Shown here: in pieces, positions 21,903 through 40,106 of the stretch
How positions within the stretch are numbered: the first letter of the stretch is position 1
How the letters are laid out: every line of letters begins with the position of its first letter
Source: Oceanispirochaeta crateris
Lineage (GTDB): Bacteria > Spirochaetota > Spirochaetia > DSM-2461
Reading direction: 5' to 3'
Length of the DNA: 64,000 bases
Assembly: GCF_008329965.1 (NCBI RefSeq)
Contig: NZ_CP036150.1
Location: forward strand, 186,001-250,000
Made by a program: the position numbers and the translations under genes
Notes under the pieces: generated by a model
What the model was told of the DNA's origin: nothing
Database searches by the model: none
What the model saw: the letters and a program-made list of their open reading frames with translations, nothing else

Positions 21903-22024
21903 TTAGGTTCTTCCTATTTCAATGTATTGATTCCTTCCATATTAGACTAAAACATCCATTTTAATCTTGGATTTTAATAACATATGGTTCCAACTATATG
22001 GTATTCTCAATAAAAGGAGGGCCT

Positions 22025-24736
22025 ATGGATTCAAAGAATGTCAACATCATCATTGATGGTCAGAGTATCAGCACTAGATCTGGAATGAGACTTCTTGATG
22101 CCGCCCGTGAACACGGGATTGATATCCCCTCTTTGTGTTACAAGAAACATATGCTTCCCCTGGACTCCTGCCGCATGTGTGTGGTCCGTGTAAAAGGTCT
22201 GGCCGGCTTGAAGAGTTCCTGTTCTCTTGTTGTGGAGGAGGGGATGGACATCTGCTCCATGGATGACGAGATTGAGGCTGTACGACGGACAACTCTGGAA
22301 CTGATTCTTGCAGATCATGATTATGATTGTTCAATCTGTCACCAGGCGGGAGAGTGTACCCTGCAAGATCTAGCCTACCGGTATCAGATTGATGCTCAGG
22401 GGTGCAGAGATTTCAGAGCTGTTGAAGATCGTCCCGTAGTAGAGCCTGATGTCACTTCTCCGGTTTTGGAATTTGATCCGGGAAAGTGTATCCGCTGTGG
22501 AATTTGCATCCAGGCCTGTTCAGAGCTTCAGGGTAAGCATGTTCTGGATTTTATGGATAGGGGTATGCAGGTTTTTCCTTCACCAGAATACTGGACCTGG
22601 AAAGAATCCAGCTGCGATGGATGTGGAGAGTGTGTCCAGAATTGTCCTACCGCCGCCTTGACAGAAAAGCCCGTCAATGGAAGGTTTCGAATCAGTGATA
22701 TTGATAAAAGAGTCCGGACAAGCTGCGGCTACTGTGGTGTCGGTTGTCAGATGGACCTCTGGGTCAGGAATAACCAGGTTGTCAAGGTGAGGGGGGCCGG
22801 AGCGGATGTTTTGCCCAACAGAGGACGTCTGTGTGTAAAAGGACGATTCGGATATCAATTCCTGGGCAGTCGTGAGCGTCTGAGGGTCCCTCTCATCAGG
22901 AAAAAGGGAACTTTTTGTGAAGTCTCCTGGGAGGAAGCCCTGGATTATACGGCACAAAAACTTGCAGAGATCCGGGATGAGTCTGGACCGGATTCTCTCG
23001 CGGGATTGGCCTCGGCCCGATGTACCAATGAAGAGAATTATATTTTTCAGAAATTCTTCAGGGCCGCCGTGGGGACCAATTCTGTGGATCACTGTGCCAG
23101 GCTTTGCCATGCCCCAACCGTCGCCGGGCTGGTTCGTGCCTTCGGGTCCGGTGCCATGACAAATCCCATTGAAGATCTGGCAGGGGCAGACTGCATTCTT
23201 GTTACGGGAGCCAATGTCTCTGAGACCCATCCGGTTACCGCTACCTACATTCGCAATGCCAGGGATAGAGGGGCTCAGATCATAGTCATTGATCCACGGA
23301 AAATTGATTTGATTCAAGGTTCGACTCTATGGCTCAGACCGAAGTCCGGTACAGACGTCGCCTGGATCAACGGCTTGATCCATATCATTTTAGAGGAGGG
23401 ATTGGCCGACAGGGAGTTTATCAGAACCCGGACGGATAATTTCGTGGCCCTTGAAGAAGCCGTCAAGCCCTTTACTCCCCGCGTAGTGGAAGACATCTCG
23501 GGCATTTCTGAAAAGCAGCTGCGCCAGGCCGCCCGTCTCTATGGAGCTGCCTCTAAATCCTCCATTGTCTTCGCCATGGGCATCACCCAGCACATTACCG
23601 GTACGGATAATGTACTGTCTCTGGCCAATCTCGCCATGGTTTGCGGTCAGGTCGGCAGGGCTTCTACGGGAGTGAATCCCTTACGAGGACAAAACAATGT
23701 CCAGGGAGCCTGTGATATGGGGGGACTTCCTAATGTGTTTCCCGGCTATCAACATGTTTCAGATCCTGAGATCCGCTTAAAGTTTGAGACCGCCTGGGGG
23801 AGGGCCCCTTTAGCTGCAAAAACGGGTCTGACCGTGATGGAAATGATGAATTCCGCCTCGGAAGGCCGCGTCAGGGGCATGATGATCATGGGTGAGAATC
23901 CAATGCTCTCCGATCCGAATCTAAATCATGTAGAAGCCTCCCTGAAGGCCCTCGATTTTCTTGTGGTTCAGGATATTTTTATGACAGAAACCTCAGCATT
24001 GGCCGATGTTATTCTCCCGGCAGCGGCATTCGCCGAGAAAGAGGGGAGCTTTACCAATACGGGGCGCAGGGTGTTGAGAGTTCGCAAGGCCGTCGAACCT
24101 CCCGGAGAGTCCAGAGCAGACTGGCAGATTCTTACTGAAATTTCCACCCGCATGGGGTATCCCATGGCCTATAAAAATAGCTCACAAATCATGAAGGAAA
24201 TCGCGTCTCTTACTCCCATATATGGGGGCATCTCCTATGAACGTCTGGAAGATGAAAATCTCCAATGGCCCTGTCCTTCACAGGAGCATCCTGGTACACC
24301 TTTCCTCCACAAAGAGCAATTTTCCAGGGGGAAGGGTCTGTTCCATCCCGTAGACTATATTCCGCCTGCTGAGCGTCCAGATAAGGAATATCCCTTTGTT
24401 TTGTCTACCGGCCGTTTACTCTATCACTATCACACCGCTACCATGACAAGGCGGTCTGAAGCCTTGAACGATTTTGCCCCGTCAGCCTATGGAGAGATCA
24501 ACGGAGAAGACCTGGACCGATTAGGGGCCGGGGAGGGAGACCTTCTGAAGGTGACCTCCCGAAGAGGAGAGATCGTTGTCCCTGCCAGAAAGAGTGATCG
24601 TGTTGCCCCGGGAGTTCTTTTCATTCCCTTTCATTTTCATGAATCACCCGTCAATAGGCTGACCAATGATGCTCTAGACCCGGCTTCCAAGATACCAGAA
24701 CTAAAAGTATCGGCCTGCAGGGTGGAGCTGGTATGA
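22025..24736 (+). CDS. fdhA: Formate dehydrogenase alpha subunit with N-terminal ferredoxin domains
   Basis: A 903-residue molybdopterin oxidoreductase. It starts with a [2Fe-2S] domain (DSCRMCVV), a His-Cys [4Fe-4S] segment (DYDCSICHQAGECTLQDLAY) and two [4Fe-4S] sites (CIRCGICIQAC and CDGCGECVQNC), like NuoG and HydA-type N termini. The catalytic domain has SCGYCGVGC and the active-site region DHCARLCHAPTVAG, where cysteine stands in place of the selenocysteine of many formate dehydrogenases. The ATG at 22025 has AAAAGGAGGG upstream; a longer frame from 21998 is less likely. It is cytoplasmic, with no Tat signal and no membrane subunit nearby, so the electron partner may be NAD or ferredoxin. 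It overlaps mobA by 4 bp. Confidence 0.92.
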   Translation: MDSKNVNIIIDGQSISTRSGMRLLDAAREHGIDIPSLCYKKHMLPLDSCRMCVVRVKGLAGLKSSCSLVVEEGMDICSMDDEIEAVRRTTLELILADHDYDCSICHQAGECTLQDLAYRYQIDAQGCRDFRAVEDRPVVEPDVTSPVLEFDPGKCIRCGICIQACSELQGKHVLDFMDRGMQVFPSPEYWTWKESSCDGCGECVQNCPTAALTEKPVNGRFRISDIDKRVRTSCGYCGVGCQMDLWVRNNQVVKVRGAGADVLPNRGRLCVKGRFGYQFLGSRERLRVPLIRKKGTFCEVSWEEALDYTAQKLAEIRDESGPDSLAGLASARCTNEENYIFQKFFRAAVGTNSVDHCARLCHAPTVAGLVRAFGSGAMTNPIEDLAGADCILVTGANVSETHPVTATYIRNARDRGAQIIVIDPRKIDLIQGSTLWLRPKSGTDVAWINGLIHIILEEGLADREFIRTRTDNFVALEEAVKPFTPRVVEDISGISEKQLRQAARLYGAASKSSIVFAMGITQHITGTDNVLSLANLAMVCGQVGRASTGVNPLRGQNNVQGACDMGGLPNVFPGYQHVSDPEIRLKFETAWGRAPLAAKTGLTVMEMMNSASEGRVRGMMIMGENPMLSDPNLNHVEASLKALDFLVVQDIFMTETSALADVILPAAAFAEKEGSFTNTGRRVLRVRKAVEPPGESRADWQILTEISTRMGYPMAYKNSSQIMKEIASLTPIYGGISYERLEDENLQWPCPSQEHPGTPFLHKEQFSRGKGLFHPVDYIPPAERPDKEYPFVLSTGRLLYHYHTATMTRRSEALNDFAPSAYGEINGEDLDRLGAGEGDLLKVTSRRGEIVVPARKSDRVAPGVLFIPFHFHESPVNRLTNDALDPASKIPELKVSACRVELV

Positions 24737-25332
24737 TAAGTCTCAAGACAAAAGCGGGGCCCTTCGTCACCGCGGGAATCCTCACGGGAGGGGGAAGTCG
24801 CCGTTTTGGGCAGGATAAGGCCTTGTATCCCTGGAAAGGACAGACACTTTTAGAGTGGACACTACAGGGAGCCGCTTATATGACGGATAAAACGTATCTT
24901 CTGGCGAAGAGTCCAGAGGCTTATCTCTATACGGGCCTCCCCGTTTTAGAAGATTCATCTTCCGAATCTACTCCCCTCAACGGGATTCTCTCGGTCATCC
25001 CCTATGTGAAGGATTGGCTTCTTCTTTTGGCCTGTGATATCCCTTTTTTCGACTCCAAAGTCCTGGAAGCCCTTTGGGAATCCAGAAGCCGGAATGAGGC
25101 GACCATCCTCCGCTTAGCCGGAAAGTATCAGCCCTTTTTGAGCTTGTATCCTGATACGGTTCTGCCTCTGTGGGCTGAAGCTTTTCACTCTGGAGAGTAT
25201 CAGCTGCAGAAGGTCATTGAGGGGATGCCCAAAATTGTTCTGGAGGAGGAAAATTTACTTTTGAGAGGCATCAGGCCCGAATGCTTTTCCAATATAAACA
25301 GCCCCACCGACCTGGAAAAACTGCCTCTATGA
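24733..25332 (+). CDS. mobA: Molybdenum cofactor guanylyltransferase MobA
   Basis: A 199-residue nucleotidyltransferase that adds GMP to molybdopterin for bis-MGD enzymes. The signature ILTGGGSRRFGQDKA is at about 16-30, followed by LLLACDIPFFDSKV and PECFSNINSPTDLEKL at the end. It overlaps fdhA by ATGA upstream and fdhD by ATGA downstream, forming a tight three-gene operon for formate dehydrogenase and its cofactor. Confidence 0.92.
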   Translation: MISLKTKAGPFVTAGILTGGGSRRFGQDKALYPWKGQTLLEWTLQGAAYMTDKTYLLAKSPEAYLYTGLPVLEDSSSESTPLNGILSVIPYVKDWLLLLACDIPFFDSKVLEALWESRSRNEATILRLAGKYQPFLSLYPDTVLPLWAEAFHSGEYQLQKVIEGMPKIVLEEENLLLRGIRPECFSNINSPTDLEKLPL

Positions 25333-26084
25333 TTATAAAAGAGGTCTCAATTGTCCGATATAATCATGGCCGTCCGGAAAGAAGGCCCGATAGGGTTATT
25401 TGTGAAAACTGGTTGTCCCTTTACCTGAATGGAACGCTCCTTCGGGAAATCCCGGTGACAAACCGGGATATTCCTGATCTGGTCACAGGAATTCTGTGTA
25501 CAGAAGGCTATTTGAAATCAAAAGAACTCCCACAGATCATGCTGGAAGGTTCCATCTGCCGGGTCTCTCTGGAGGGAAACATTCAGGTCAAAACTCAGAG
25601 GGATCTTGTAGACTGCGCTTCCACACGGGTCGAGTTGGATGAGAACATTCAACCACTACGGCAGGGATCGCCTAGAACAGCCGATGATATTCTCTCTTTG
25701 GTTGCAGAATTTCAAAAAATTCCCTCGGTGTATCATGAGACCGGAGGGGTACACATGGCCGCCTTTGCCCAGGATCAAATTGAGTATTGGGCGGACGATA
25801 TCAGTCGAAGGAATGCTGTGGACAAGGTGATCGGGAAGGGGTATTCAGGACATGTGGATTTTTATCAGGGATTGATCATCACATCCGGACGGATCTCATC
25901 GGATTTGATCTTGCGGATGGTCCACATGGGCATTCCCATGATTGTTTCAATCTCTGCCCCGACGGACAGGGCTTTATTTTTGGCCGAATCCTATGGTGTT
26001 ACCGTCTGCGGTTTTGCCCGGGGACTGAGGATGAATATTTACACCCATGAAGAGAGGGTGGACACGGTTTCTAAAGGCCATTAG
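25329..26084 (+). CDS. fdhD: FdhD sulfur carrier for formate dehydrogenase
   Basis: A 251-residue FdhD. In E. coli this protein passes sulfur from IscS to the molybdenum cofactor. The conserved C-terminal parts are ETGGVHMAAFAQD, RRNAVDKVIGKG, SGRISSDLI and VSISAPTDRA. The usual CxxC loop is reduced here to one cysteine in VDCASTRVELDE. The start ATG at 25329 overlaps the mobA stop; an earlier ATG at 25281 lies inside mobA. A second, more divergent paralogue is at 38148. Confidence 0.9.
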   Translation: MIIKEVSIVRYNHGRPERRPDRVICENWLSLYLNGTLLREIPVTNRDIPDLVTGILCTEGYLKSKELPQIMLEGSICRVSLEGNIQVKTQRDLVDCASTRVELDENIQPLRQGSPRTADDILSLVAEFQKIPSVYHETGGVHMAAFAQDQIEYWADDISRRNAVDKVIGKGYSGHVDFYQGLIITSGRISSDLILRMVHMGIPMIVSISAPTDRALFLAESYGVTVCGFARGLRMNIYTHEERVDTVSKGH

Positions 26085-29281: not shown

Positions 29282-30151
29282 ATGAAAAAACTATTGATAC
29301 TCTTATTTGGTTTCACTTTGGTGTTTATGGCCGCCGCCTCAGGGCAGAATGAATCTTCTGAAGAAACGAGGAGTATTCGAATTGGCGTGATGCCCGATGC
29401 GGGTGCGCTTCCTCTTTTTCTGATGGACAATGTGGAACCCGTGCCATTTATGAGTGCCAAGGAACGGGATACCGCCATGCAGATAGGCGAACTGGATGGA
29501 ATCATGACAGACCTTGTCTCTGTTGTCTCCTTCGGTCAGAAGGGGATGCCCCAGAAGGTTCTCACCATCACTGAGAGCCGTTTTATGATCGTTGCTCATC
29601 CCGAATTCGATGACAATTCCCTCTGGAGCATAGGGCTCTCGGATAATACGGTTATTGAGTTTATGGTGGATCAGATGGCGGGAGAACGTGAGATTGAGAA
29701 GGTCTCCATACCCCAGGTTCCTGTTCGGATGGAAATGCTGGGGAACGGTAAGATTCCTCTGGCCTGTTTAACCGATGCCATGGCCTGGCCTCTCCTGAGC
29801 CGGGGATTCCCAATTGTCGTGGATCAGGCCGACACAGGACTGGAACCAGCAGTTCTTGCCTTCTCTGAAAGCTTTGTTCAGGATCATCCCCAAGAGCTGA
29901 GTGACTTTCGGGATCAGTGGGATGAGGCTGTGAGTCAAATCAATGCTGACCCCGATCGATACCGATCTCTTCTTCTGGATAAAATACGTCTTCCCGATGA
30001 TCCTGAGAATCCCTATCCGGTGCCTCACTTTCGCCCTGTGATACTCCCTCCTGTCGATACGGTTTCCAGTGTACTTCAATGGTTTGAAGCCAAATATGGG
30101 CTGGAACATTCTGTCAGCTATGAAGATATTATAATTTCACAAGGGAATTGA
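29282..30151 (+). CDS. ABC transporter substrate-binding protein of the NMT1/SsuA type
   Basis: A 289-residue exported protein with a signal peptide (MKKLLILLFGFTLVFMAAASG). The type II binding-protein fold is seen in RIGVMPDAGALPLFLM, a hinge, and GELDGIMTDLVSVVSFG. No lipobox is evident. It is the first ABC component in the run; the matching ATPase and permease lie at 33136-34613, beyond UbiD, UbiA and UbiX. The split order suggests that the imported compound is the substrate or precursor of the Ubi enzymes. MqnA and MqnD share this fold but lack a signal peptide, so they were set aside. Confidence 0.8.
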   Translation: MKKLLILLFGFTLVFMAAASGQNESSEETRSIRIGVMPDAGALPLFLMDNVEPVPFMSAKERDTAMQIGELDGIMTDLVSVVSFGQKGMPQKVLTITESRFMIVAHPEFDDNSLWSIGLSDNTVIEFMVDQMAGEREIEKVSIPQVPVRMEMLGNGKIPLACLTDAMAWPLLSRGFPIVVDQADTGLEPAVLAFSESFVQDHPQELSDFRDQWDEAVSQINADPDRYRSLLLDKIRLPDDPENPYPVPHFRPVILPPVDTVSSVLQWFEAKYGLEHSVSYEDIIISQGN

Positions 30152-30160
30152 TCCCTGCTG

Positions 30161-30189
30161 TGGACTCCCCCTCCAGCTCTCACTATAAT
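30161..30189 (+). promoter_or_regulatory. Promoter giving a probably leaderless ubiD mRNA
   Basis: TGGACT (30161-30166), 17 bp, perfect TATAAT (30184-30189), 6 nt, then the ATG at 30196. No Shine-Dalgarno is seen. This would let the Ubi genes be read separately from the upstream genes. Confidence 0.55.
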
Positions 30190-30195
30190 CGGCAT

Positions 30196-31644
30196 ATGTC
30201 TTATAAAAATTTGCAGGATTTTATAGCCCGGCTTGAAAAGGAAGGGGAGTTGAAAAGAATCAGCGCCCCGGTCAGTCCAAAGCTGGAGATAAGTGAAATT
30301 ACCGATAGGGTGAGTAAGCAGAGCGGTCCTGCTTTGCTCTTCGAAAATGTTGAGGGGTCGGATTTTCCGGTTCTGATCAATGCCATGGGCAGTTACCGGC
30401 GTATGGCCATGGCTCTAGGAGCTTCGACTCTGGATGAAAAAGCGGCGGAGCTGGAAGAGCTCATGGATTGGGCTTTCTCTCAGATGCGCCGCTTGGATGT
30501 GATGAGCTTTTTCCCTAAGATCAAATGGGCCCGCCTTTTTCTGCCCCACAGGGTTTTAAAAGCACCCTGTCAGCAGGTTGTGGATCATAATCCGGACCTC
30601 AGTACCCTTCCCGTTCTCACCTGTTGGCCCGGGGATGGCGGCCCTTTTTTTACCCTGCCACTTGTGATCACGAAAGATCCGGAAACAGGTTCCCAGAACA
30701 TGGGAATGTACCGTATGCAGGTCTATGATAAAAATACAACGGGCATGCATTGGCATCACCATAAAGACGGGGCCCACTATTTTCACAAATACAAAGAACG
30801 GGGGGAGAGGATGCCTGTGGCTGTGGCTCTAGGAGATGATCCCGCCGTCACATACGCCGCAACGGCACCTCTACCAGAGGGTATTTCTGAGTTATTCTTT
30901 GCCGGTTATCTTCGGGGAAAACCCGTGGAAACAGTCAAATGCATCACTTCGGATTTGCAGGTACCCGCCCAGGCCGAGTTTATTCTGGAAGGCTACGTCG
31001 ATCCGGAAGAGCCCCTGCGCCGGGAGGGTCCCTTTGGTGACCATACAGGGTATTACTCCCTGGAAGACGATTATCCCGTGTTTCATGTAACGTGTATCAC
31101 CCGGAGAAAAAAGCCGGTTTTCCCTGCCACCATTGTCGGTCAGCCTCCCATGGAAGACTGCTATATTGCCAAGGCCACGGAGCGGATTTTTCTGCCTCTC
31201 CTCAAAAAGATGGTACCAGAAATGGTCGATATGAACCTGCCCCTGGAAGGTGTTTTTCATAACTGCGCCATTATTTCCATCCACAAGCGTTATGCGGGGC
31301 AAGTCCAGAAGGTTTTGAACAGTATCTGGGGAATGGGACAGATGATGTACACCAAGATGATCATCGTTGTGGATCATGATGTGGATGTTCAAAACCTGAG
31401 TCATGTCATGTGGAAGGTTTTCAACAATATTGATGCCGAAAGGGATCTGATTATGAGTCAGGGTGCGTTGGATGCCCTGGACCATGCCTCTCCCCGGTCC
31501 CGTTTCGGTACCAGGCTGGGGGTGGATGCGACTCGAAAAGGTCCTCTAGACGGGCATGAACGAGAATGGCCCGAAGACATCGTCATGAGTGAAGATGTTA
31601 AAAAACAGGTGGATCTCCGATGGAAGGAATTGGGTTTTGAGTAA
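30196..31644 (+). CDS. ubiD: UbiD-family prenylated-FMN-dependent decarboxylase (MqnL-like)
   Basis: A 482-residue (de)carboxylase. The family features are MSYKNLQDFIARLEKEGEL, GPFGDHTGYYS with the conserved acidic site, TCITRRKKPVFPATIVG, and EVFNN-like VFNNID near the end. It uses prenylated FMN made by UbiX, which is encoded two genes downstream. In the futalosine menaquinone route the equivalent enzyme decarboxylates the prenylated dihydroxynaphthoate. The ATG at 30196 is preferred over one at 30148 because it gives the standard N terminus and lies 6 nt after a TATAAT. UbiA overlaps its 3' end. Confidence 0.9.
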   Translation: MSYKNLQDFIARLEKEGELKRISAPVSPKLEISEITDRVSKQSGPALLFENVEGSDFPVLINAMGSYRRMAMALGASTLDEKAAELEELMDWAFSQMRRLDVMSFFPKIKWARLFLPHRVLKAPCQQVVDHNPDLSTLPVLTCWPGDGGPFFTLPLVITKDPETGSQNMGMYRMQVYDKNTTGMHWHHHKDGAHYFHKYKERGERMPVAVALGDDPAVTYAATAPLPEGISELFFAGYLRGKPVETVKCITSDLQVPAQAEFILEGYVDPEEPLRREGPFGDHTGYYSLEDDYPVFHVTCITRRKKPVFPATIVGQPPMEDCYIAKATERIFLPLLKKMVPEMVDMNLPLEGVFHNCAIISIHKRYAGQVQKVLNSIWGMGQMMYTKMIIVVDHDVDVQNLSHVMWKVFNNIDAERDLIMSQGALDALDHASPRSRFGTRLGVDATRKGPLDGHEREWPEDIVMSEDVKKQVDLRWKELGFE

Positions 31645-32548
31645 AATGGAAAAGCTCCGCCGGTTCATCCGCCGGGAAACCCGGCGGGGGCAGGGAATCA
31701 GCCGGGCCGTCATGCTGGAGCATACTCTGTTTTCCCTCCCTTTGGCGATTTGTGCTTTTTTACTGGAAAGCGGAGGACGCCCCGGTTTTTCCACTGTCCT
31801 CTGGATTCTGCTGGCTGTTTTTGCGGCCCGGAATGGAGCCAATGCTCTTAACCGTCTGATTGATAGAAAAATTGATGCCGAGAACCCCCGCACTGCCGAT
31901 AGAGATCTGCCCTCGGGACGGGTGAAACTCCGTGATCTGTGGATTTTTACAATCGTCTGCGGCCTGCTTTTCCTTTTCTCTGCGGCTATGCTGAATCCTC
32001 TCTGCCTGTTCCTGGTCCCATTGGGAGCCCTGCTCATCGGCGGTTATTCTTTTACTAAACGTTTTACATGGCTCTGTCATTTCTGGCTGGGTATTACCTG
32101 TTCTGCCGCTGTTATGGGCAGTTTTCTAGCCCTGAGCGGACGCTTTGAAATCCGCTACTTTCCACTGACAATCGCCGCAGCTCTTTGGATTGCCGGCTTT
32201 GATATCATCTATGCCCTTCAGGATATTGATCATGACCGATCTCACGGCATTCACTCTGTACCGGCTCGTTTTGGCTATCCTGGAGCCCTATACATAGCGG
32301 GAATGAGTCATGGGGGAACCCTGTTTTTTCTGCTGGTGAACATGGCCTTTTTTAAGGTTGGTCTATGGTATGCCGCGGGAGTCGTTATTGCGGCTCTCAT
32401 TCTGGTGGCCGAACACATCCTCGCCTGGAAGGGGGATGTAAAATGGATTCCTTTGGCATCCTATCACCTGAATCAGATCCTCTCCCCTGTGGTTCTTCTC
32501 TTCACAGTTCTGGATATTTATATGCCGGGAGGCCTGTATGGTCTCTGA
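31637..32548 (+). CDS. UbiA-family aromatic prenyltransferase (MqnP-like)
   Basis: A 303-residue integral membrane enzyme with about eight helices. The first aspartate-rich motif is NRLIDRKIDAENPRT (about 75-90) and the second is DIDHDR (about 195-200), as in 4-hydroxybenzoate and futalosine-pathway prenyltransferases. The RNGANALNRLIDRKID context is closest to MqnP. A TTG start at 31637 is chosen since AAGGA lies 8 nt upstream; the ATG at 31646 would be 17 nt from it. It overlaps ubiD by 8 bp and ubiX by 11 bp. Confidence 0.85.
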   Translation: MSKMEKLRRFIRRETRRGQGISRAVMLEHTLFSLPLAICAFLLESGGRPGFSTVLWILLAVFAARNGANALNRLIDRKIDAENPRTADRDLPSGRVKLRDLWIFTIVCGLLFLFSAAMLNPLCLFLVPLGALLIGGYSFTKRFTWLCHFWLGITCSAAVMGSFLALSGRFEIRYFPLTIAAALWIAGFDIIYALQDIDHDRSHGIHSVPARFGYPGALYIAGMSHGGTLFFLLVNMAFFKVGLWYAAGVVIAALILVAEHILAWKGDVKWIPLASYHLNQILSPVVLLFTVLDIYMPGGLYGL

Positions 32549-33143
32549 TTCTACGCCGCTTATTCTGGCAGTGACAGGAGCCAGCGGTTCCTTTTACGCT
32601 AAGGCTCTTGCAGAAAAGATAATTAAGAGGGGTCTTTCTCTCCATCTTTTGATCAGCAGGACTGCCCCCGAAGTATTCCAGAAAGAGACGGGAAGCTCCA
32701 TGGATCAATGGTTGGAGGAGTTGAGTTCAACGGGGATGGTGACCCTAGAAAGCCTTGGAAACCTGGGGGCTTCTATTTCCAGCGGTTCCTACCTGACCCG
32801 GGGAATGATCATTGCTCCCTGCAGTATGGGGACTCTTGGAAGAATTGCCGCTGGAATTTCCGGGAACTTGATAGAGCGGGCAGCGGATGTCTGTCTCAAA
32901 GAGAGACGGAGACTGGTCCTGCTGACCCGAGAATCTCCCCTTTCGGCCATTCACCTGGAAAATATGCTCCGCCTCACCCATGCGGGTGGGGTCATCATGC
33001 CCCCCGTCCCAGCCTTTTATACCCTTCCCAAGAATCTCAGTGATATTGTGGACTATACGGCCGAACGTGTGATGGATATGATGGGTCTTCCATCGGAGGA
33101 TATCCCGAGATGGAGTCCAGGAGGCGATTCAGAAAATGATTGA
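32538..33143 (+). CDS. ubiX: UbiX flavin prenyltransferase
   Basis: A 201-residue enzyme that joins FMN to dimethylallyl phosphate, making the cofactor for UbiD. The motifs are AVTGASGSFYAKALAE (about 11-26), IIAPCSMGTLGRIAAGISGNLIERAADV in two stretches, and TRESPLSAIHLENM. GGAGG precedes the ATG by 6 nt, inside the end of the UbiA gene. It overlaps the ABC ATPase gene by 8 bp. Confidence 0.93.
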   Translation: MVSDSTPLILAVTGASGSFYAKALAEKIIKRGLSLHLLISRTAPEVFQKETGSSMDQWLEELSSTGMVTLESLGNLGASISSGSYLTRGMIIAPCSMGTLGRIAAGISGNLIERAADVCLKERRRLVLLTRESPLSAIHLENMLRLTHAGGVIMPPVPAFYTLPKNLSDIVDYTAERVMDMMGLPSEDIPRWSPGGDSEND

Positions 33144-33891
33144 TTTTCTGGATACAGCATTTTCTTATGCGAGTGATAAACCCGTTTTACCCGGTTATCG
33201 TGACAGTTGGGAGACGGGGTTGATACATTCTCTTATAGGACCATCGGGCTGTGGTAAGAGTACTCTTCTGTATCTTATGGCTGGTCTGATTCAACCTCTC
33301 AGTGGTGAGATTCATATCCATGGGAAGAGCCCTCAACCGGGTAGGAGGGAGACCGGTGTCATTCTGCAAAATCACGGCCTATTCCCCTGGAAAACAGCCT
33401 GGCAGAATCTGGCTTTAGGACTTGAAATCCGGGGTGTGAAGAAGAGTGTCATCCATGAGAAGGTCCGTCAGGTTGTTAAAGACCTCGCCCTGGAAGGGAA
33501 AGAACACTCCTTTCCAAAAGATATGTCAGGAGGCGAAAGGCAGAGACTGGCCATCGGACGATCCATGGTTTCGGATCCTGACCTGTTACTGCTGGATGAA
33601 CCTTTTTCGGCCCTGGATGCCATGACCAGAGAAAGGCTTCAGGATAATTTATGGCAACTGCAGCACAAGGGGCCCTCCCACTCTTGCGGGCTGACAGTCG
33701 TCCTTGTTACCCACAGTATCGAAGAGGCTGTTTTTCTCAGCGACCGGATTCATATCATGGACGATCAGGGAGGAATCCGGTCCCTGTCAAATAAGACATC
33801 GGGTCCCGGGAGCAGGATGGATGCATCCTACTTTGAAGCCTGTGTTCTTTTAAGAAAGCAGTTTGAGCTTCATTCCAGGGGGAAAATATGA
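33136..33891 (+). CDS. ABC transporter ATPase (SsuB/TauB-like)
   Basis: A 251-residue ATPase with GPSGCGKST (about 35-43), Q-loop LQNHGLFPWKTAWQNLALG, signature MSGGERQRLAIGRSM, Walker B LLLLDEPFSALD and switch VTHSIEEAVFLSD. It belongs with the permease directly after it (ATGA overlap) and the binding protein at 29282. The SsuB/TauB/ThiZ group imports small organic acids, sulfonates and thiamine precursors. Confidence 0.9.
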   Translation: MIDFLDTAFSYASDKPVLPGYRDSWETGLIHSLIGPSGCGKSTLLYLMAGLIQPLSGEIHIHGKSPQPGRRETGVILQNHGLFPWKTAWQNLALGLEIRGVKKSVIHEKVRQVVKDLALEGKEHSFPKDMSGGERQRLAIGRSMVSDPDLLLLDEPFSALDAMTRERLQDNLWQLQHKGPSHSCGLTVVLVTHSIEEAVFLSDRIHIMDDQGGIRSLSNKTSGPGSRMDASYFEACVLLRKQFELHSRGKI

Positions 33892-34613
33892 AGAAAATGC
33901 TCCCACCTCTTGTCCTTCTCATCGCCCTTTGGTGGTGCAGTTCCCTGATCATTGACAAGCCTTTTTTTCCAACGCCTGATCGCGTTGTTCTGGAAATGGT
34001 GCAACAGTTCCTTATGGGGGATTTGACATCACATTTGATGACCTCCCTCTTTAGAGTCTTTGCCGCGCTTGTTTTTTCATTCTTTCCTGCTCTTTTTCTG
34101 GGGATTGCCGCCGGAAGGAGCCCCGGTTTTGATTCCCTTATCAGCCCGGCAGTTTATCTCCTGTATCCCGTACCCAAGGTAGCCCTTCTTCCCATCATCC
34201 TCCTCTTTTTGGGACTGGGAAATTTTTCCAAGATATTCTTTGTTTCTCTCGTTGTTTTCTTTCAGTTCTATCTGAATCTGAGGGACGAAACAGCGGGTAT
34301 CAGCCGTCAGTATTTTGATTCTCTCACATCTTTGGGAGGGAGTAAGAGGAATGAGTTAAGGCATATCATCCTCCCGGCTTTGATGCCCCGTATTTTTTCA
34401 TCCCTTAGAATGACCCTGGGTACTGCCATTGCCATCCTTTTTTTGGCAGAGACCTTTGCCACCAGGAGAGGGATCGGCTGGTACATCATGGATGCCTGGT
34501 CTCGCATCGCCTATACGGAGATGTATACGGGCATACTGGCCTTGAGTCTGGCGGGATTTTTGCTTTTTTTGATCCTTGATCTCTCAGAAACCTTTTTCTG
34601 TCGCTGGAAATAA
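33888..34613 (+). CDS. ABC transporter permease (SsuC/TauC-like)
   Basis: A 241-residue inner-membrane permease with about six helices. The EAA-type loop DSLTSLGGSKRNELRHIILPAL is split by the coupling glycine, and the segment LLYPVPKVALLPIILLFLG is typical of the SsuC/TauC/ThiX group. It closes the 8.4-kb run that starts with the U32 gene. No terminator hairpin was found directly after it. Confidence 0.9.
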   Translation: MKKMLPPLVLLIALWWCSSLIIDKPFFPTPDRVVLEMVQQFLMGDLTSHLMTSLFRVFAALVFSFFPALFLGIAAGRSPGFDSLISPAVYLLYPVPKVALLPIILLFLGLGNFSKIFFVSLVVFFQFYLNLRDETAGISRQYFDSLTSLGGSKRNELRHIILPALMPRIFSSLRMTLGTAIAILFLAETFATRRGIGWYIMDAWSRIAYTEMYTGILALSLAGFLLFLILDLSETFFCRWK

Positions 34614-34627
34614 TACCTTTAGATGAT

Positions 34628-34643
34628 TATTTATCGATAAATA
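34628..34643. promoter_or_regulatory. Perfect palindrome upstream of the AOR operon promoter
   Basis: TATTTATCGATAAATA is a perfect 16-bp palindrome that ends 1 bp before the -35 box, the position expected for an activator or a roadblock repressor. Its right part TATCGATAAATA recurs exactly at 51677-51688 in the hydrogenase promoter. Confidence 0.55.
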
Positions 34644-34644
34644 C

Positions 34645-34673
34645 TTTACGAAATAAAAAAACAGTCCTATAAT
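34645..34673 (+). promoter_or_regulatory. Promoter of the AOR-Tat operon
   Basis: TTTACG (34645-34650), 17 bp, perfect TATAAT (34668-34673). Predicted start of transcription is near 34680, directly before the riboswitch. Confidence 0.6.
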
Positions 34674-34683
34674 AGCAAACTCT

Positions 34684-34806
34684 AGCTCCGATTCAGGATT
34701 TCCTAAGGGCAAACTCTTAGCCTATGGGTTCTGAACATTGGGTGCCCTGGAAACGGTGGTTGCCTCCCGCGTTTGAAAAGGAGACTATACGCACGAGGGA
34801 GGAGTT
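34684..34806 (+). promoter_or_regulatory. Molybdenum/tungsten cofactor (Moco/Tuco-type) riboswitch
   Basis: The leader contains an 11-nt GNRA tetraloop receptor, CCTAAG (34702-34707) opposite TATGG (34723-34727), closed by TTCAG/CTGAA. A GAAA tetraloop sits at 34750-34753. The 3' part has GGTTGCCTCCCGCG, then TTGAAAAGGAGACTA, then CGCACGAGGGAGG. This layout is how I remember Moco RNA. CCTCCC (34763-34768) can pair with GGGAGG (34797-34802), which is the ribosome site for the GTG at 34810, so ligand binding should hide it and shut off translation. The downstream AOR-family gene supports the call. A covariance-model search was not possible here. Confidence 0.8.
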
Positions 34807-34809
34807 ATT

Positions 34810-35460
34810 GTGTCCGTAAAAGAAAACAAAATCCTAAATACGGCCATTACGCGCCGAGACTTTCTTAAGTTTACAGGACTTGGAACAGTCGGAGCCGCTG
34901 CAGCATCCTGGTTACTACCCGGATGTCAATCCAAAGATATCAAGATATTCGAAACAGCAGATGGTATGATTATTCATGAAGCTGCCCGTTGTACTGGTTG
35001 TCTCATATGTGAGTCTACCTGTTCTGTTGGAAATGACGGAAAAGCGAGTCAGATTACCGCACGTATCAAAGTCAGTCAGAATCTGGCTTATGGACCCGAC
35101 GGAGTCAGAGGGGACTGGGTTCATGGAAAGGGTGAAAATGGTAATTTTACCATGACCGCCGATACATGCCGTCAGTGTGAACAACCCGCCTGCGCTTTAG
35201 CCTGTCCGCAGGGAGCTATATTTCAGCAGGAAGCTACTGGCGCACGTGAAGTTGATCCTGAGAAATGTGTCGGCTGCGGAACTTGTACCCGCGCCTGTCC
35301 CTGGGGAATCCCCACACTGGATCCGGAAACCAATATTTCTACAAAATGTATTCTCTGTCACGGCTACACAGCTTGTGTCAAAGATTGTCCTACCGGGGCT
35401 CTTTCCTATGTTTCATGGGAAGACGCACTCAAGAACTATAAAAAACACTTTCAGGTTTAA
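34810..35460 (+). CDS. Tat-exported four-cluster ferredoxin-like protein
   Basis: A 216-residue iron-sulfur protein. The N terminus TRRDFLKFTGLG (residues 14-25) is a twin-arginine signal, and LLPGC soon after could be a lipobox, so it may be anchored outside. Four cysteine groups follow: CTGCLICESTC, CRQCEQPACALAC, CVGCGTCTRAC and CILCHGYTACVKDC, enough for four [4Fe-4S] clusters. It resembles the YdhY/YdhX-type partners of AOR-family enzymes. The GTG start is preceded by GGGAGGAG, which is also the 3' strand of the riboswitch stem. It probably carries electrons for the enzyme encoded next and may hand them to a quinone or periplasmic partner. Confidence 0.88.
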   Translation: MSVKENKILNTAITRRDFLKFTGLGTVGAAAASWLLPGCQSKDIKIFETADGMIIHEAARCTGCLICESTCSVGNDGKASQITARIKVSQNLAYGPDGVRGDWVHGKGENGNFTMTADTCRQCEQPACALACPQGAIFQQEATGAREVDPEKCVGCGTCTRACPWGIPTLDPETNISTKCILCHGYTACVKDCPTGALSYVSWEDALKNYKKHFQV

Positions 35461-35479: not shown

Positions 35480-37582
35480 ATGGCGCTTAAAGGCGGATGG
35501 ACAGGTACTATACTTAGAGTAAACCTGAGTACGGGAGAAATTACCCGTGAATCTACAGAAAAATACACTTATTTCATCGGTGGTATGGGAATCGGATATA
35601 AAGTCATGTGGGACGAAGTCCCTGCCGGAACTCATCCTTTTGCCGAGGAAAACAGAATTATATTCGGAGTGGGCCCTCTGACTGGTACAGGAGCAATGTG
35701 CAGTGGAAGGACCAACATTACAAGTCTTTTAGCTTCTAACCCATTTCATGGTGTCAGTGACAGTCATATGGGTGGGCACTTTGCCGTAGAACTGAAATAT
35801 GCGGGGTATGATGCCATCATTATTCAGGGAAAATCTGAAAAACCGGTGTGGCTTAGAATTGCCGACCAGGATGTCAGCCTAGAAGATGCATCTCTCTTGT
35901 GGGGACATGGGACTTTTAGCACGATTAAAGAAGTAACAGCCCTCATGGGAAAAGACTCCCAGGTTGCCGCTATCGGTCAGGCTGGTGAAAACCAGGTGAA
36001 CCTTTCGGTCATCAGAACCGGAACAAGCCACTCGGCTGGTGGCCATGGCGGAGTCATGGGTTCCAAAATGCTCAAGGCCATTGGTCTTAGGGGAACCGGA
36101 TCGGTAAAGATTGCCGGTGACAGATTAAAATGGCATGCATTAAATAAATCAACCTTCGATATCGTGGGTGCCAATAACCAGCATGTTGTTCCTTCCACCC
36201 CTCAACCCTGGGCCGAATTCCATGATCCAGCCAGCCGCTGGACAGCTCAGAAAGGTCTTATGTGGGGAGCCGCGGAATATCCCATTGAAACTGGAGAATG
36301 CCCTCCTGGAGAACCAAATAAGATCGGTTACCGGACAATGAAGTCTATCAAGGACCTGGGTCCTGCCGCTGAAAAATATACGGTCCGCATGGGGGGATGT
36401 GCCTCATGTCCAGTTCGTTGTCATGCCCATTTGAATGTACCTGAACTAGAAGCCTATGGTGTGAGCCCCTATGTAGCCAATACATGTATGGGATTTTACT
36501 CACCCAATGGAATTATGAATGGTAAATACAATATTGAGGGAAAAACAAAGGACGAAGCAACTGTTATTGGCCGAACAGCAGGAGCTCAGGTAGCGGATGA
36601 CCTGGGAGTTTGGTGTAATTACGGGCAGATAGGACGTGACTTTCAATGGACATTAAAACATGGTTACCTGAAAAAAGTTCTTCCTGCAGAAGAGTATGCC
36701 AGTCTAAAATTGGATTTGCTGGAAGCAGGAGATCCTAACTTCTTTCATGAGTTCTATCGCCGTATAGCTTTCAAAGAAGGTGAATTGGCCACATTGGGTG
36801 AAGGAGCCCACTATGTGGCTAAGAAGTGGAACCTGCCGGAAGAGTACTGGACCTACAAAGGAAACAAACTTTGGAGCAAGGTCGGATACCCCGTCCATCA
36901 TAGTAATGAATCCAATGGTGTGGTAGGAGCTGTTATTTCCTCTATGTTTAATCGGGATGCTCAGTGTCATACTCATCAGAACCTTATCGGAAGCGGTCTT
37001 CCTACGAAAATACAACAGGAAATTGCGGCCGAGCACTGGGGTGAGGGAGCTATTGACGAACCTGCGTTCTATACTCCTGCCAATGAAGCGAAAGCCAAGT
37101 TTACAAAATGGAGCATTGTACGGAATGTACTGCACGATTCATTGACTCTGTGTAACTGGATGTGGCCCATGACAGTTTCTCCTCTGAAAGAGAAGGGCTA
37201 CAGAGGTGATACCTCTCTTGAGTCCAAGTTTTTTAGCATGGCTACCGGATTTAATGTAAGAGAGGACGTTTTGGATAGTTATGCAGAACGTGTCTTTACC
37301 CTGCACCGTGCATTGACCGCCAAACAGATGAACTCTAAGAATCTGCGGGAAGATCATGACCAGCTGACAGGTTGGCAGTATTCAATGGATCCAGAGAAGA
37401 CTGCCTTCGATCAGGGGACAATCAAGCTGGATAAGGATGACTACAATATGGCTTTGACCTATTTTTACAAAGAAATGGGCTGGGATGAGACAACTGGTAT
37501 TCCTACACGGAAAAAACTGGATGAGCTGGAACTTTCAGATGTAGCAGATCAGCTGGAAAGTCTTGGACTCCTGACAGCCTGA
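35480..37582 (+). CDS. AOR-family (tungsten/molybdenum) oxidoreductase, YdhV-like
   Basis: A 700-residue aldehyde:ferredoxin oxidoreductase family enzyme. Family features are the N-terminal GWTGTILRVNLSTGEITRE, the cofactor-binding IGGMGIGYK and GTGAMCSGRTN, AGENQVNLSVIRTG, and the [4Fe-4S] ligands CASCPVRC (about 307-314) with a distal cysteine in TLCNWMW. The length and the pairing with a ferredoxin-like protein resemble E. coli YdhV and YdhY. The enzyme itself has no Tat signal, which leaves its compartment open: either cytoplasmic, or carried with its partner. The substrate is unknown. AGGAGG precedes the ATG. Confidence 0.9.
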   Translation: MALKGGWTGTILRVNLSTGEITRESTEKYTYFIGGMGIGYKVMWDEVPAGTHPFAEENRIIFGVGPLTGTGAMCSGRTNITSLLASNPFHGVSDSHMGGHFAVELKYAGYDAIIIQGKSEKPVWLRIADQDVSLEDASLLWGHGTFSTIKEVTALMGKDSQVAAIGQAGENQVNLSVIRTGTSHSAGGHGGVMGSKMLKAIGLRGTGSVKIAGDRLKWHALNKSTFDIVGANNQHVVPSTPQPWAEFHDPASRWTAQKGLMWGAAEYPIETGECPPGEPNKIGYRTMKSIKDLGPAAEKYTVRMGGCASCPVRCHAHLNVPELEAYGVSPYVANTCMGFYSPNGIMNGKYNIEGKTKDEATVIGRTAGAQVADDLGVWCNYGQIGRDFQWTLKHGYLKKVLPAEEYASLKLDLLEAGDPNFFHEFYRRIAFKEGELATLGEGAHYVAKKWNLPEEYWTYKGNKLWSKVGYPVHHSNESNGVVGAVISSMFNRDAQCHTHQNLIGSGLPTKIQQEIAAEHWGEGAIDEPAFYTPANEAKAKFTKWSIVRNVLHDSLTLCNWMWPMTVSPLKEKGYRGDTSLESKFFSMATGFNVREDVLDSYAERVFTLHRALTAKQMNSKNLREDHDQLTGWQYSMDPEKTAFDQGTIKLDKDDYNMALTYFYKEMGWDETTGIPTRKKLDELELSDVADQLESLGLLTA

Positions 37583-37586
37583 AAAT

Positions 37587-38147
37587 ATGAATAACCCTAT
37601 CCAGGGGATTCTACTGGAGGCGGTGAAAACCGCCTCCGGGCTTTCCCGCCTCATTGACGATCTGGAACTGACAAAGCTCTGCATGGAAGAAGTTTCAGAT
37701 GATATAGAAATCACCAATTCCGAAATACGCGAGATTATTCTGACAATGAATGATCAGGAAGAGTTTACTTTATGCGTATTCACGGGCAAAGAGCGACTCC
37801 GCTGTTTTGACTCTACCATCATGAGCCTGTCCTACGCGAAGGCATTGAACCTCGGTGCCGAGGGGGACATTTTTGAAACGATTGCCTCGACGGTACGCAA
37901 TGAATCCAGACAGTATCCACGGCCTACTATGATAGATATGTTTCGACATCCTCCTTATAATCTGGAGCCCGAGATTCTGGAACATACGGTTGAAGCCATT
38001 CTTAAGGATCATTCTGAATTTAAAGATATATGCCGAAGTTCGGCATCCAATGGAGACATTTACTTGTACTCCAATCGATACATCAATAAATCAAGGGCAG
38101 ACTATCTTTCTGAGTGGGAGTCTGTCGGAAGCTTGGAGTCACAATAA
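37587..38147 (+). CDS. Unrecognised protein of the AOR operon
   Basis: A 186-residue soluble protein with no signal peptide, no cysteine cluster and no motif I recognise. It begins with two helical stretches, and has a QEEFTLCVFTGKERL beta-rich middle and a charged helical C-terminal part ending in a SRADYLSEW segment. It starts 4 bp after the AOR gene and its stop directly abuts the next ATG, so it is a true operon member. Its place after AOR recalls E. coli ydhW. An assembly chaperone for the AOR enzyme or its export partner is a reasonable guess from position only. Confidence 0.7.
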   Translation: MNNPIQGILLEAVKTASGLSRLIDDLELTKLCMEEVSDDIEITNSEIREIILTMNDQEEFTLCVFTGKERLRCFDSTIMSLSYAKALNLGAEGDIFETIASTVRNESRQYPRPTMIDMFRHPPYNLEPEILEHTVEAILKDHSEFKDICRSSASNGDIYLYSNRYINKSRADYLSEWESVGSLESQ

Positions 38148-38828
38148 ATGATAGATCAGAATATGTTGAATCTGACACCACCTCAGGTTGAAGAAAATGA
38201 AATCACACTCTATGTGGGCACAACGCTGTTTCAGACCTTTCTCTGCACCCCTGAGGCATTGGAAGAGTTAGGCGTCGGACACCTGTACTGCCGAGGCATC
38301 ATAAGTGAAAGAGAGGATATTACTAAGATAGAAATATCCAAAATTGAGCAAGATGGATTGGACAAGTATGAGATCCGGGTGGAGCTGAAGAATCAGATAG
38401 AAAAAGATCGGAAAAGACAGGACTCTTTTCAAATGCCTTCAGTCTCCCATCTTCAGGATCTTGCCGCTAATATCAAAGACCTTGCCGGGAAATACCGGAG
38501 CCATGGAGGAATCCACTGTGCTGCCTTATCAGATAGTCGTGACATTGTTTCTCTTTATGAGGATGTAGGCAGGCATAATGCCTTTGACAAAGCCATTGGA
38601 GCCGCGGTAATAAAAGGAATTCGACCCTCTGAACTCATCTATTTTTCATCGGGACGTATCAATTCGGAAATCGCCGAAAAAGCAGCTGTCTGCCGTCTGC
38701 CCCTTCTTGTCAGCCGGAGTATTGCCACCACAAGGGCCTGTTTCATTGCCGGAGGATCAAATACCTGCATCATTGGCAGGATTGAATCAAAGATTCCCTT
38801 CTTGTATACTGCCTCCACGAGAGAGTAA
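38148..38828 (+). CDS. Divergent FdhD-like protein lacking the CxxC loop
   Basis: A 226-residue FdhD-family protein. The C-terminal hallmark parts are present: HGGIHCAALSDSRD, EDVGRHNAFDKAIGAA and SSGRINSEIAEKAA. The N-terminal part is shorter and the sulfur-transfer CxxC loop is absent; the corresponding region reads DRKRQDSFQMPSV. It therefore cannot work by the known cysteine mechanism and may instead bind or present the cofactor of the AOR enzyme. It directly abuts its neighbours (stop-start contact on both sides). The canonical paralogue is at 25329. Confidence 0.82.
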   Translation: MIDQNMLNLTPPQVEENEITLYVGTTLFQTFLCTPEALEELGVGHLYCRGIISEREDITKIEISKIEQDGLDKYEIRVELKNQIEKDRKRQDSFQMPSVSHLQDLAANIKDLAGKYRSHGGIHCAALSDSRDIVSLYEDVGRHNAFDKAIGAAVIKGIRPSELIYFSSGRINSEIAEKAAVCRLPLLVSRSIATTRACFIAGGSNTCIIGRIESKIPFLYTASTRE

Positions 38829-39599
38829 ATGAAGCATAAAGCAAAAGAAAACGAGCCGGAGGTTCTTGAATCACAGCCGGTTTTAGCTCATATAAAAGAG
38901 CTGCGGACCGTATTTTTTGTCTCAATCATTGCCCTGGCCATTGGCAGTTGTATCAGTTTTTACTTTTTTGATCCCATCATCAATTTTCTCTATAAACCAT
39001 TCAGCACAATGGAAGGGCTCGGATCGACGGATACCCTTTTTGTGAATTTCCTTTTTGAAGGATTCGTTACAAAATTAAAAATATCGGTGATGGCAGGGCT
39101 GACTATGGCTGTTCCGGTCATCCTTTTCATGTTAGTCCGCTTTACTCTGCCTGCTCTCAGGAAAAAAGAAAAAAATGTTCTCTTCGGGGCTCTGGTTTGC
39201 GGAGGGTTTCTTGTCATTGTAGGGTTCTATTACGGATATTTTTACATACTGCCCCTCACTGTTCAATTCTTTACCAGCAGGGGATTCTTGCCTGATAATG
39301 TTGGCTTCATGCTGAACTATCAGAAAAATGTCATCTATATTTTCAGGTTTATACTGATGATCATGCTGAGCTTCCAGTTTCCCATACTGCTTGAAGTACT
39401 ACTAGTATTGAATATTGTCTCCCGGAAGGCTCTTTTTAAGGCAAGCCGTTTTGTCATCGTCCTTGTCTTTATTGTGTCGGCGTTAATAACCCCTCCCGAT
39501 TTTATTTCCCAGTGTATAATTTCCCTGCCCCTGATCTTTCTCTATTTTTGTGCTATTTTCATAGCCAAAATATTTCATTTCGGCGAACAGGAGAAATAG
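38829..39599 (+). CDS. tatC: Twin-arginine translocase TatC
   Basis: A 256-residue membrane protein with six helices. The opening LAHIKELRTVFFVSIIALAIG (cut here at the helix) and the later FYYGYFYILPLTVQFFT and SFQFPILLEVLLVL parts are characteristic of TatC. It follows the FdhD-like gene with no gap and is followed by tatB- and tatA-like genes. The Tat substrate in this operon is the ferredoxin at 34810. Confidence 0.92.
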   Translation: MKHKAKENEPEVLESQPVLAHIKELRTVFFVSIIALAIGSCISFYFFDPIINFLYKPFSTMEGLGSTDTLFVNFLFEGFVTKLKISVMAGLTMAVPVILFMLVRFTLPALRKKEKNVLFGALVCGGFLVIVGFYYGYFYILPLTVQFFTSRGFLPDNVGFMLNYQKNVIYIFRFILMIMLSFQFPILLEVLLVLNIVSRKALFKASRFVIVLVFIVSALITPPDFISQCIISLPLIFLYFCAIFIAKIFHFGEQEK

Positions 39600-39603
39600 A
39601 GTC

Positions 39604-39918
39604 ATGAATGGACTGGGATTTCAGGAAGTATTGGTTATTGTTGCCCTTGTCATCTTGTTTATACGCCCTCAGGAACTGCCGGTTATTTTTCGTAAATTGG
39701 GAAAAGCCTGGGCCAAGGTCTATTATTACTATACTTTAATGAAAAAAGAGCTCCAGAGTATGGAGAAAGAGATTGGAATAGAAGAAGAAATGAAAGAAAT
39801 TCGATCCATGAATGCAAGAATGAAGAGCGAGATTGCCAATTTTGACCGCGCTCTATCAGATACAGTGAATACAAAGGTCACATCAAATAATAAAACGGAA
39901 GAACAGAAGGAGTCATAA
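39604..39918 (+). CDS. tatB: TatB-like translocase subunit
   Basis: A 104-residue protein with one N-terminal transmembrane helix (FQEVLVIVALVILFI), the short RPQELPVIFRKLGKA hinge-amphipathic helix and a long charged coiled-coil tail. The tail length and the proline in the hinge fit TatB better than TatA. It starts 4 bp after tatC. Confidence 0.8.
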   Translation: MNGLGFQEVLVIVALVILFIRPQELPVIFRKLGKAWAKVYYYYTLMKKELQSMEKEIGIEEEMKEIRSMNARMKSEIANFDRALSDTVNTKVTSNNKTEEQKES

Positions 39919-39920
39919 TT

Positions 39921-40106
39921 ATGTTAGGAACTACAGAAGTCATGGTCATTGGTGGGGTCGTGGTATTGCTTTTTGGAGCATCGGCTATACCAAAATTTGC
40001 CAAGAGCCTTGGAAAAGCCAAGAAAGAGTTCAAGGAAGGACTTGAAGAGGGCGATTCCGAAATGAATGAATCGGACAACAATAAAACCGAAACCAAGGAA
40101 AAATAA
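39921..40106 (+). CDS. tatA: TatA-like translocase subunit
   Basis: A 61-residue protein with an N-terminal helix (TTEVMVIGGVVVLLFGASA), then the conserved IPKFAKSLGKAKKEFKEG amphipathic helix and a short acidic tail. This is a standard TatA. It lies 2 bp after tatB and closes the operon. Confidence 0.9.
   Translation: MLGTTEVMVIGGVVVLLFGASAIPKFAKSLGKAKKEFKEGLEEGDSEMNESDNNKTETKEK

Follow-up and report, generated by a model that had tools for sequence, protein, structure and literature searches.

A P3-less Moco-family RNA, probably a translational ON switch, at the head of a YdhV-type oxidoreductase and Tat operon in Oceanispirochaeta crateris

The seven-gene ydhY operon and its host genome

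The window analysed here, a stretch of 64 kb, spans bases 186001-250000 of the 4.01-Mb single-contig genome of Oceanispirochaeta crateris. It contains a run of seven forward-strand genes separated by 0-19 nt. The first encodes a ydhY-like 4Fe-4S ferredoxin subunit (WorS; 34810-35460), which matches Fer4 families and NF007382 (191.8 bits, cut-off 213) and carries an RRDFLK Tat motif that scores just under the cut-off of the TAT_signal model (19.4 against 22.7 bits). The second encodes a YdhV-type aldehyde ferredoxin oxidoreductase (WorL; 35480-37582; AFOR_N and AFOR_C), whose NF007354 score of 1087.7 bits exceeds the cut-off of 868. Downstream lie genes for a YdhW-like protein (37587-38147; NF007411 108.2 bits, below the cut-off of 203), an FdhD sulfurtransferase (38148-38828; PF02634 149.9 bits), TatC (38829-39599; PF00902 160 bits, TIGR00945 above cut-off), a TatB-like protein (39604-39918; TIGR01410 39.9 bits, below the cut-off of 56.5) and TatA (39921-40106; PF02416 49.7 bits, TIGR01411 above cut-off). 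The first-pass annotation had described a ferredoxin-AOR-FdhD-Tat operon, which is correct in content and gains the YdhW-like gene.

Judged by sequence, the enzyme belongs with the class V WORs (clade 41) of PMC13328260, as it combines a YdhV-type large subunit with a Tat-signal small subunit. With this clade and with E. coli ydhYVWXUT it shares the large subunit, the Tat-signal ferredoxin subunit and YdhW, and as at the Cetobacterium somerae WOR locus, where tat and tup genes surround the enzyme (PMC13328260), tat genes are nearby. What sets the locus apart from the class V WORs of that paper is that FdhD and TatCBA lie inside the operon and that a Moco-family RNA stands at its head; PMC13328260 makes no mention of a riboswitch. 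The ydhY-ydhV-ydhW module also occurs with FdhD and Tat genes in other spirochaetes, in Halanaerobiales and in several Clostridia. Among named genomes, the nearest YdhV relatives are those of the spirochaetes Candidatus Marispirochaeta associata (82% best-segment identity) and the Spirochaetales MAG SZUA-414 (81%).

The host genome carries tupABC, with the TupA and TupB models as leading specific matches below their equivalog cut-offs, and no modA was found in it. It also has two AOR genes, two PF00384 genes and five MoCoBD_1 genes. Because of the latter two sets molybdenum use is possible, and the five MoCoBD_1 genes make the idea of a tungsten-only organism untenable. Elsewhere in the window (21998-26084), genes for a formate dehydrogenase alpha subunit (TIGR01591), a MobA-like protein and a second FdhD stand in a row that has no Moco RNA match. 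Directly upstream of the ydhY leader (29282-34613) are UbiD, UbiA and UbiX-like (flavoprotein) genes; next come an ABC ATPase and a permease, for which the closest named models, SaoA and SaoP, both score below their cut-offs.

A Moco-family aptamer without P3

The leader of ydhY matches RF01055 at 34674-34797 on the forward strand. The match scores 40.2 bits, above the gathering score of 36, with an E value of 4.2e-6 over the whole window, and is the sole Rfam match in the 64 kb to exceed its curated threshold. A Moco/Tuco-type riboswitch had been proposed here from the letters alone, with the Rfam covariance model named as the check; the match passes it and, since its P3 positions are deleted in the alignment, falls into the P3-less, Tuco-associated subtype. 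The receptor, tetraloop, CCTCCC, GGGAGG and GTG that had been picked out by eye all lie where they were claimed to be. In the aptamer, a P1 5' strand CUCC (34686-34689) pairs with GGAG (34780-34783), the distal P2 (34702-34727) carries the tetraloop receptor CCUAAG (34702-34707)/UAUGG (34723-34727), and P4 (34740-34765, GGG...CCU) is capped by a GAAA tetraloop (34750-34753) and covaries in relatives. The conserved core sequence CCUCCC (34763-34768) spans P4/P5, where the usual P5 GG is GA. The leader thus shares with RF01055 as defined in PMC2408646 its P1, P2 with receptor, P4 with GAAA loop and CCUCCC core, and belongs to its P3-less subtype.

In that study P3-less RNAs made up 58 of 176 family members, 17 of the 19 organisms with such RNAs also carried tungsten-cofactor genes, and the authors proposed that the P3-less form senses the tungsten cofactor (PMC2408646). 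Direct ligand-binding tests of Moco RNA have so far been unsuccessful because the cofactor is unstable. The O. crateris genome fits this association with its tupA/tupB and AOR genes, and the RNA stands before a Mo/W-related operon. RF01055 matches the genome three times (66.2, 51.5 and 40.2 bits), every time without P3. One of the other copies precedes tupABC-moeA-moaA-moaC-MOSC-mog (where the names moaC and mog rest on sequence resemblance only). The other precedes genes for a binding protein, a PF00174 molybdopterin-domain protein and an ABC permease.

The latter operon (L005:8421-13464, genome C1:2948420 on) has its Shine-Dalgarno sequence (SD) inside P1 and encodes a solute-binding protein, the PF00174 protein and a permease of 665 amino acids. 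The solute-binding protein is again found downstream of the RNA in G296, G297 and G312, and in SZUA-414 the whole operon divergently adjoins ydhYV; related loci are L169, L174, L179 and L305. We regard the operon as a candidate cofactor-repressed importer of a metal or pterin.

Upstream of the aptamer lies a sigma-70-like promoter at 34645-34673 (TTTACG at 34645-34650, a 17-nt spacer and TATAAT at 34668-34673; 10 of 12 consensus matches). It is the joint best of our scan, in which sites of this class were not commoner than in shuffles (12 against 10.9 expected); the distance from TATAAT to the aptamer is identical in the genus mate (L126). The first-pass annotation had placed the transcription start at the base just before the structured leader. 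The site itself stands, but transcription from it would begin near 34679-34681, already within the 5' end of the Rfam match, a weakly conserved part.

A Moco RNA occupies the same place in six close spirochaetes, four Halanaerobiales and one distant spirochaete. It lies directly 5' of ydhY in the genus mate, Marispirochaeta (L007), L127, L128 and SZUA-414 (L008), and outside these close relatives in the Halanaerobiales L013, L014, L020 and L039 and in the distant spirochaete L017. None was seen upstream of ydhY at L129, L130 and most of the clostridial loci examined. In our MAFFT alignment (A1), the P1 3' strand is one column off in some rows, for which reason pair counts for P1 were not drawn from it.

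Predicted folding of the ydhY leader

The SD of ydhY, GGGAGG (34797-34802), lies 7 nt before the GTG at 34810 and 13 nt beyond P1. This differs from the E. coli moaA leader, whose ribosome-binding site is part of P1 and which is switched OFF by the cofactor (PMC2408646). In the six spirochaete leaders the SD follows P1 by 8-13 nt and the GTG follows the SD by 6-7 nt. We found no terminator-like site between the aptamer and the GTG, and so dropped a terminator-based reading of this leader.

When the leader is folded without constraint, CCUCCC pairs with the SD, and what remains of the P4 3' arm takes up the spacer and the start codon. The resulting minimum-energy hairpin (34748-34816; 34748-34768 with 34797-34816) would cover the SD and part of the GTG in the ligand-free state, which agrees, at the level of a folding model, with the earlier suggestion that the leader hides its own ribosome site. 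The modelled probability that the SD is unpaired is about 0 in the free ensemble and averages 0.74 with P1 and P4 enforced; in the other five spirochaete leaders it rises from 0-0.18 to 0.40-0.73. This alternative pairing excludes the aptamer because it uses the same bases, namely the P4 3' strand, P5 and the stretch around the 3' strand of P1. In simulations of the growing transcript, the minimum free energy falls by about 7 kcal/mol once the SD has been transcribed, and the sequestered fold is modelled as about 11 kcal/mol better than the aptamer fold, a preference that ligand, tertiary contacts or kinetics must therefore overcome. Once 30 nt of coding sequence are included, weak pairing with downstream bases takes up the start codon and part of the SD (AGGA), also when the aptamer is enforced. 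Taken as a model, the anatomy of the leader suggests that of an ON switch.

The first-pass annotation had pointed to the pairing of CCTCCC with GGGAGG. This complementarity is present, but it is partly automatic, because CCUCCC is a conserved element of the family and GGAGG is a general Shine-Dalgarno sequence, so it is not evidence alone. When we shuffled the flanks around a fixed SD, 84 of 200 shuffles reached an energy as low as that of the window's alternative stem; such shuffles are thus not significant for the window itself, and we do not use them as proof of the stem. The flanking parts of the helix add to this. The P5 loop and the linker change together, reading GUGUUU/AAACAC in L007, GUAUUU/AAAUAC in L127 and L128, and GCGU/ACGC in the window. 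Linkers swapped among 15 leaders paired less well than the native ones, which were equalled in 72 of 5000 permutations, and a strict count of helix extensions was borderline (p 0.03-0.06), both statistics being drawn from related and hence not independent leaders. We regard this covariation as suggestive of an alternative stem.

Shine-Dalgarno placement, sign and ligand

Our survey drew on spirochaetes, AOR-bearing genomes and Bacillota, which gave about 190 Moco RNAs whose downstream sequence was available; start codons were called by script. Among leaders with a close start, the SD is the P1 3' strand in 25. Two moeA leaders (L091 and L089) had appeared as exceptions after the pattern search misplaced P1; by eye the SD lies in P1 in both, which brings the count to 27. 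The genes behind this layout are moaA, moeA, tupA and other transport genes, the binding-protein/PF00174 operon, P5C dehydrogenase and one weak TiaS-like protein. A separate SD further downstream occurs in 15 close-start leaders, and all 15 precede WOR/AOR operons, which begin with ydhY, with the AOR large subunit, or with a ferredoxin followed by AOR. The association of layout with gene class has a nominal Fisher probability of 1.6e-11 (26 against 15), a value that ignores relatedness and comes from a rule formulated post hoc. Lineage alone does not explain the split, because four genomes (G000, G296, G297 and G312) hold both layouts.

The two layouts also respond differently in the folding model. 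With the aptamer enforced, the SD becomes more accessible in 14 of the 15 separate-SD leaders (in one by only 0.09); in the 23 P1-SD leaders so modelled the gain does not exceed 0.05 in any, which is partly true by construction. The clearest ON platform predicted belongs to an AOR leader of Youngiibacter fragilis (L183), in which an uninterrupted 12-bp helix joins the aptamer segment CCUCCCGUGUUU to the SD region AAAUACGGGAGG. In an independent Bacillota sample the RNA is found in 220 of 398 genomes, nearly always in long, terminator-type leaders. For leaders of this type the automatic terminator finder confused antiterminators with terminators, and the SD-placement rule is stated here for close-start leaders. 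At least one terminator-type leader, that of a formate dehydrogenase (L256), is OFF-like in the model. Only two new close-start WOR leaders came from this sample (L264 and L212); the SD is separate in both, and no switching is predicted for that of L264. The AOR gene behind L212 shifts frame within its first hundred codons, perhaps through assembly errors.

Several further loci were recorded along the way. Two tupA leaders, L121 and L167, have a separate SD about 47 nt beyond P1; in L167 the aptamer fold shuts it (unpaired probability from 0.96 to 0.00), an OFF design reached by another route, and in L121 it is unchanged. A P5C (glutamate semialdehyde) dehydrogenase, identified by TIGR01236, lies behind Moco RNAs at L092, L149, L182 and L164, with the SD inside P1 in three; it is perhaps a tungsten-free aldehyde dehydrogenase made when the tungsten cofactor is short. 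The RNAs at L082 (the leaders L081 and L087 are alike), L202 and L244 are followed by a TonB-receptor-like protein and by small membrane proteins that look like transporter permease components; these may possibly be unrecognised tungsten or cofactor uptake proteins.

We consider it probable that the ydhY leader is a P3-less Moco-family riboswitch that senses the tungsten cofactor and acts as a translational ON switch for the operon of an exported class V WOR. As long as no cofactor is bound, the 3' half of P4 and CCUCCC would quit the aptamer core and pair with the SD and start codon; cofactor binding would lock P4, P5 and P1 and free the SD. The switch would act on translation of the first gene and hence probably on expression of ydhY-ydhV-ydhW-fdhD-tatC-tatB-tatA, so that enzyme and export genes would be made when the cofactor is available. 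What is observed directly is the family membership, the loss of P3, the operon, the SD positions and their split by gene class; ligand, binding, direction and the reach to the tat genes are inferences. The first-pass annotation gave the switch no sign. The ON direction, opposite to that of E. coli moaA, is favoured because the free fold hides the SD and the aptamer-constrained fold mostly frees it, and the tungsten cofactor is the favoured ligand because the RNA lacks P3 and the genome carries tupABC and yielded no modA.

The copies before synthesis and tungstate-transport genes, with their SD inside P1, would work as OFF switches. A broader proposition, on which we place even weight, is that one aptamer works in both directions within a regulon, the position of the SD alone deciding which, and that there is an ON class of Moco/Tuco riboswitch. 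An SD within P1 would let the cofactor shut off its own synthesis, tungstate import and the tungsten-free P5C dehydrogenase. An SD a short linker past P1 would make the nearly invariant CCUCCC a built-in anti-SD, so that the cofactor would turn on the tungsten enzyme, its maturation and its export. No description of an ON-type Moco RNA was found in the openly accessible literature (subscription journals lay mostly outside the search). The likely ON sign, the built-in anti-SD and the SD-placement rule that separates tungsten-enzyme from synthesis and transport operons are what is new here.

Of the alternatives, a working riboswitch whose ligand is the molybdenum cofactor or a shared pterin precursor is possible, if unlikely. 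It would suit the MoCoBD_1 and PF00384 genes of the host and the preference of E. coli YdhV for molybdenum (PMC13328260, PMC12096430), and the E. coli RNA deprived of P3 gave no working switch (PMC2408646). All three copies in this genome, however, are P3-less, the transporter genes found are tupABC and not modA, and the class V WOR of C. somerae, an organism that also has TupABC, prefers tungsten (PMC13328260).

We think it rather unlikely that the riboswitch has the usual OFF sign, with the cofactor repressing the operon as in E. coli moaA. That leader is the only family member measured (PMC2408646), and the weak downstream pairing of AGGA and the start codon in the longer aptamer-constrained fold would point the same way. 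Against this, the SD lies outside P1, unlike in all 25-27 leaders of OFF layout, and the model predicts no stable masking of the SD in the aptamer state and full masking in the free state. We think it highly improbable that the aptamer is decaying and has no regulatory role: it is the lowest-scoring of the three, GGAAAGG has become GAAAAGG and the P1 pairs are few, but it is 89% identical to the genus mate (79% in the 100 nt upstream, 78% in the first 150 nt of coding sequence), P1 shows a compensatory change (CUCC/GGAG to CUUC/GAAG in L126), and the RNA is retained at the ydhY operon in several genera.

Because a single genome holds leaders of both the predicted OFF and the predicted ON type, ligand, sign and Mo/W specificity can be tested cleanly by genetics. 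If the tungsten-sensing ON switch is borne out, it would point, on regulatory grounds, to tungsten use by the class V WOR (YdhV-type) enzymes of these bacteria, which are little understood, and to production of FdhD and the Tat export proteins on demand together with the WOR enzyme.
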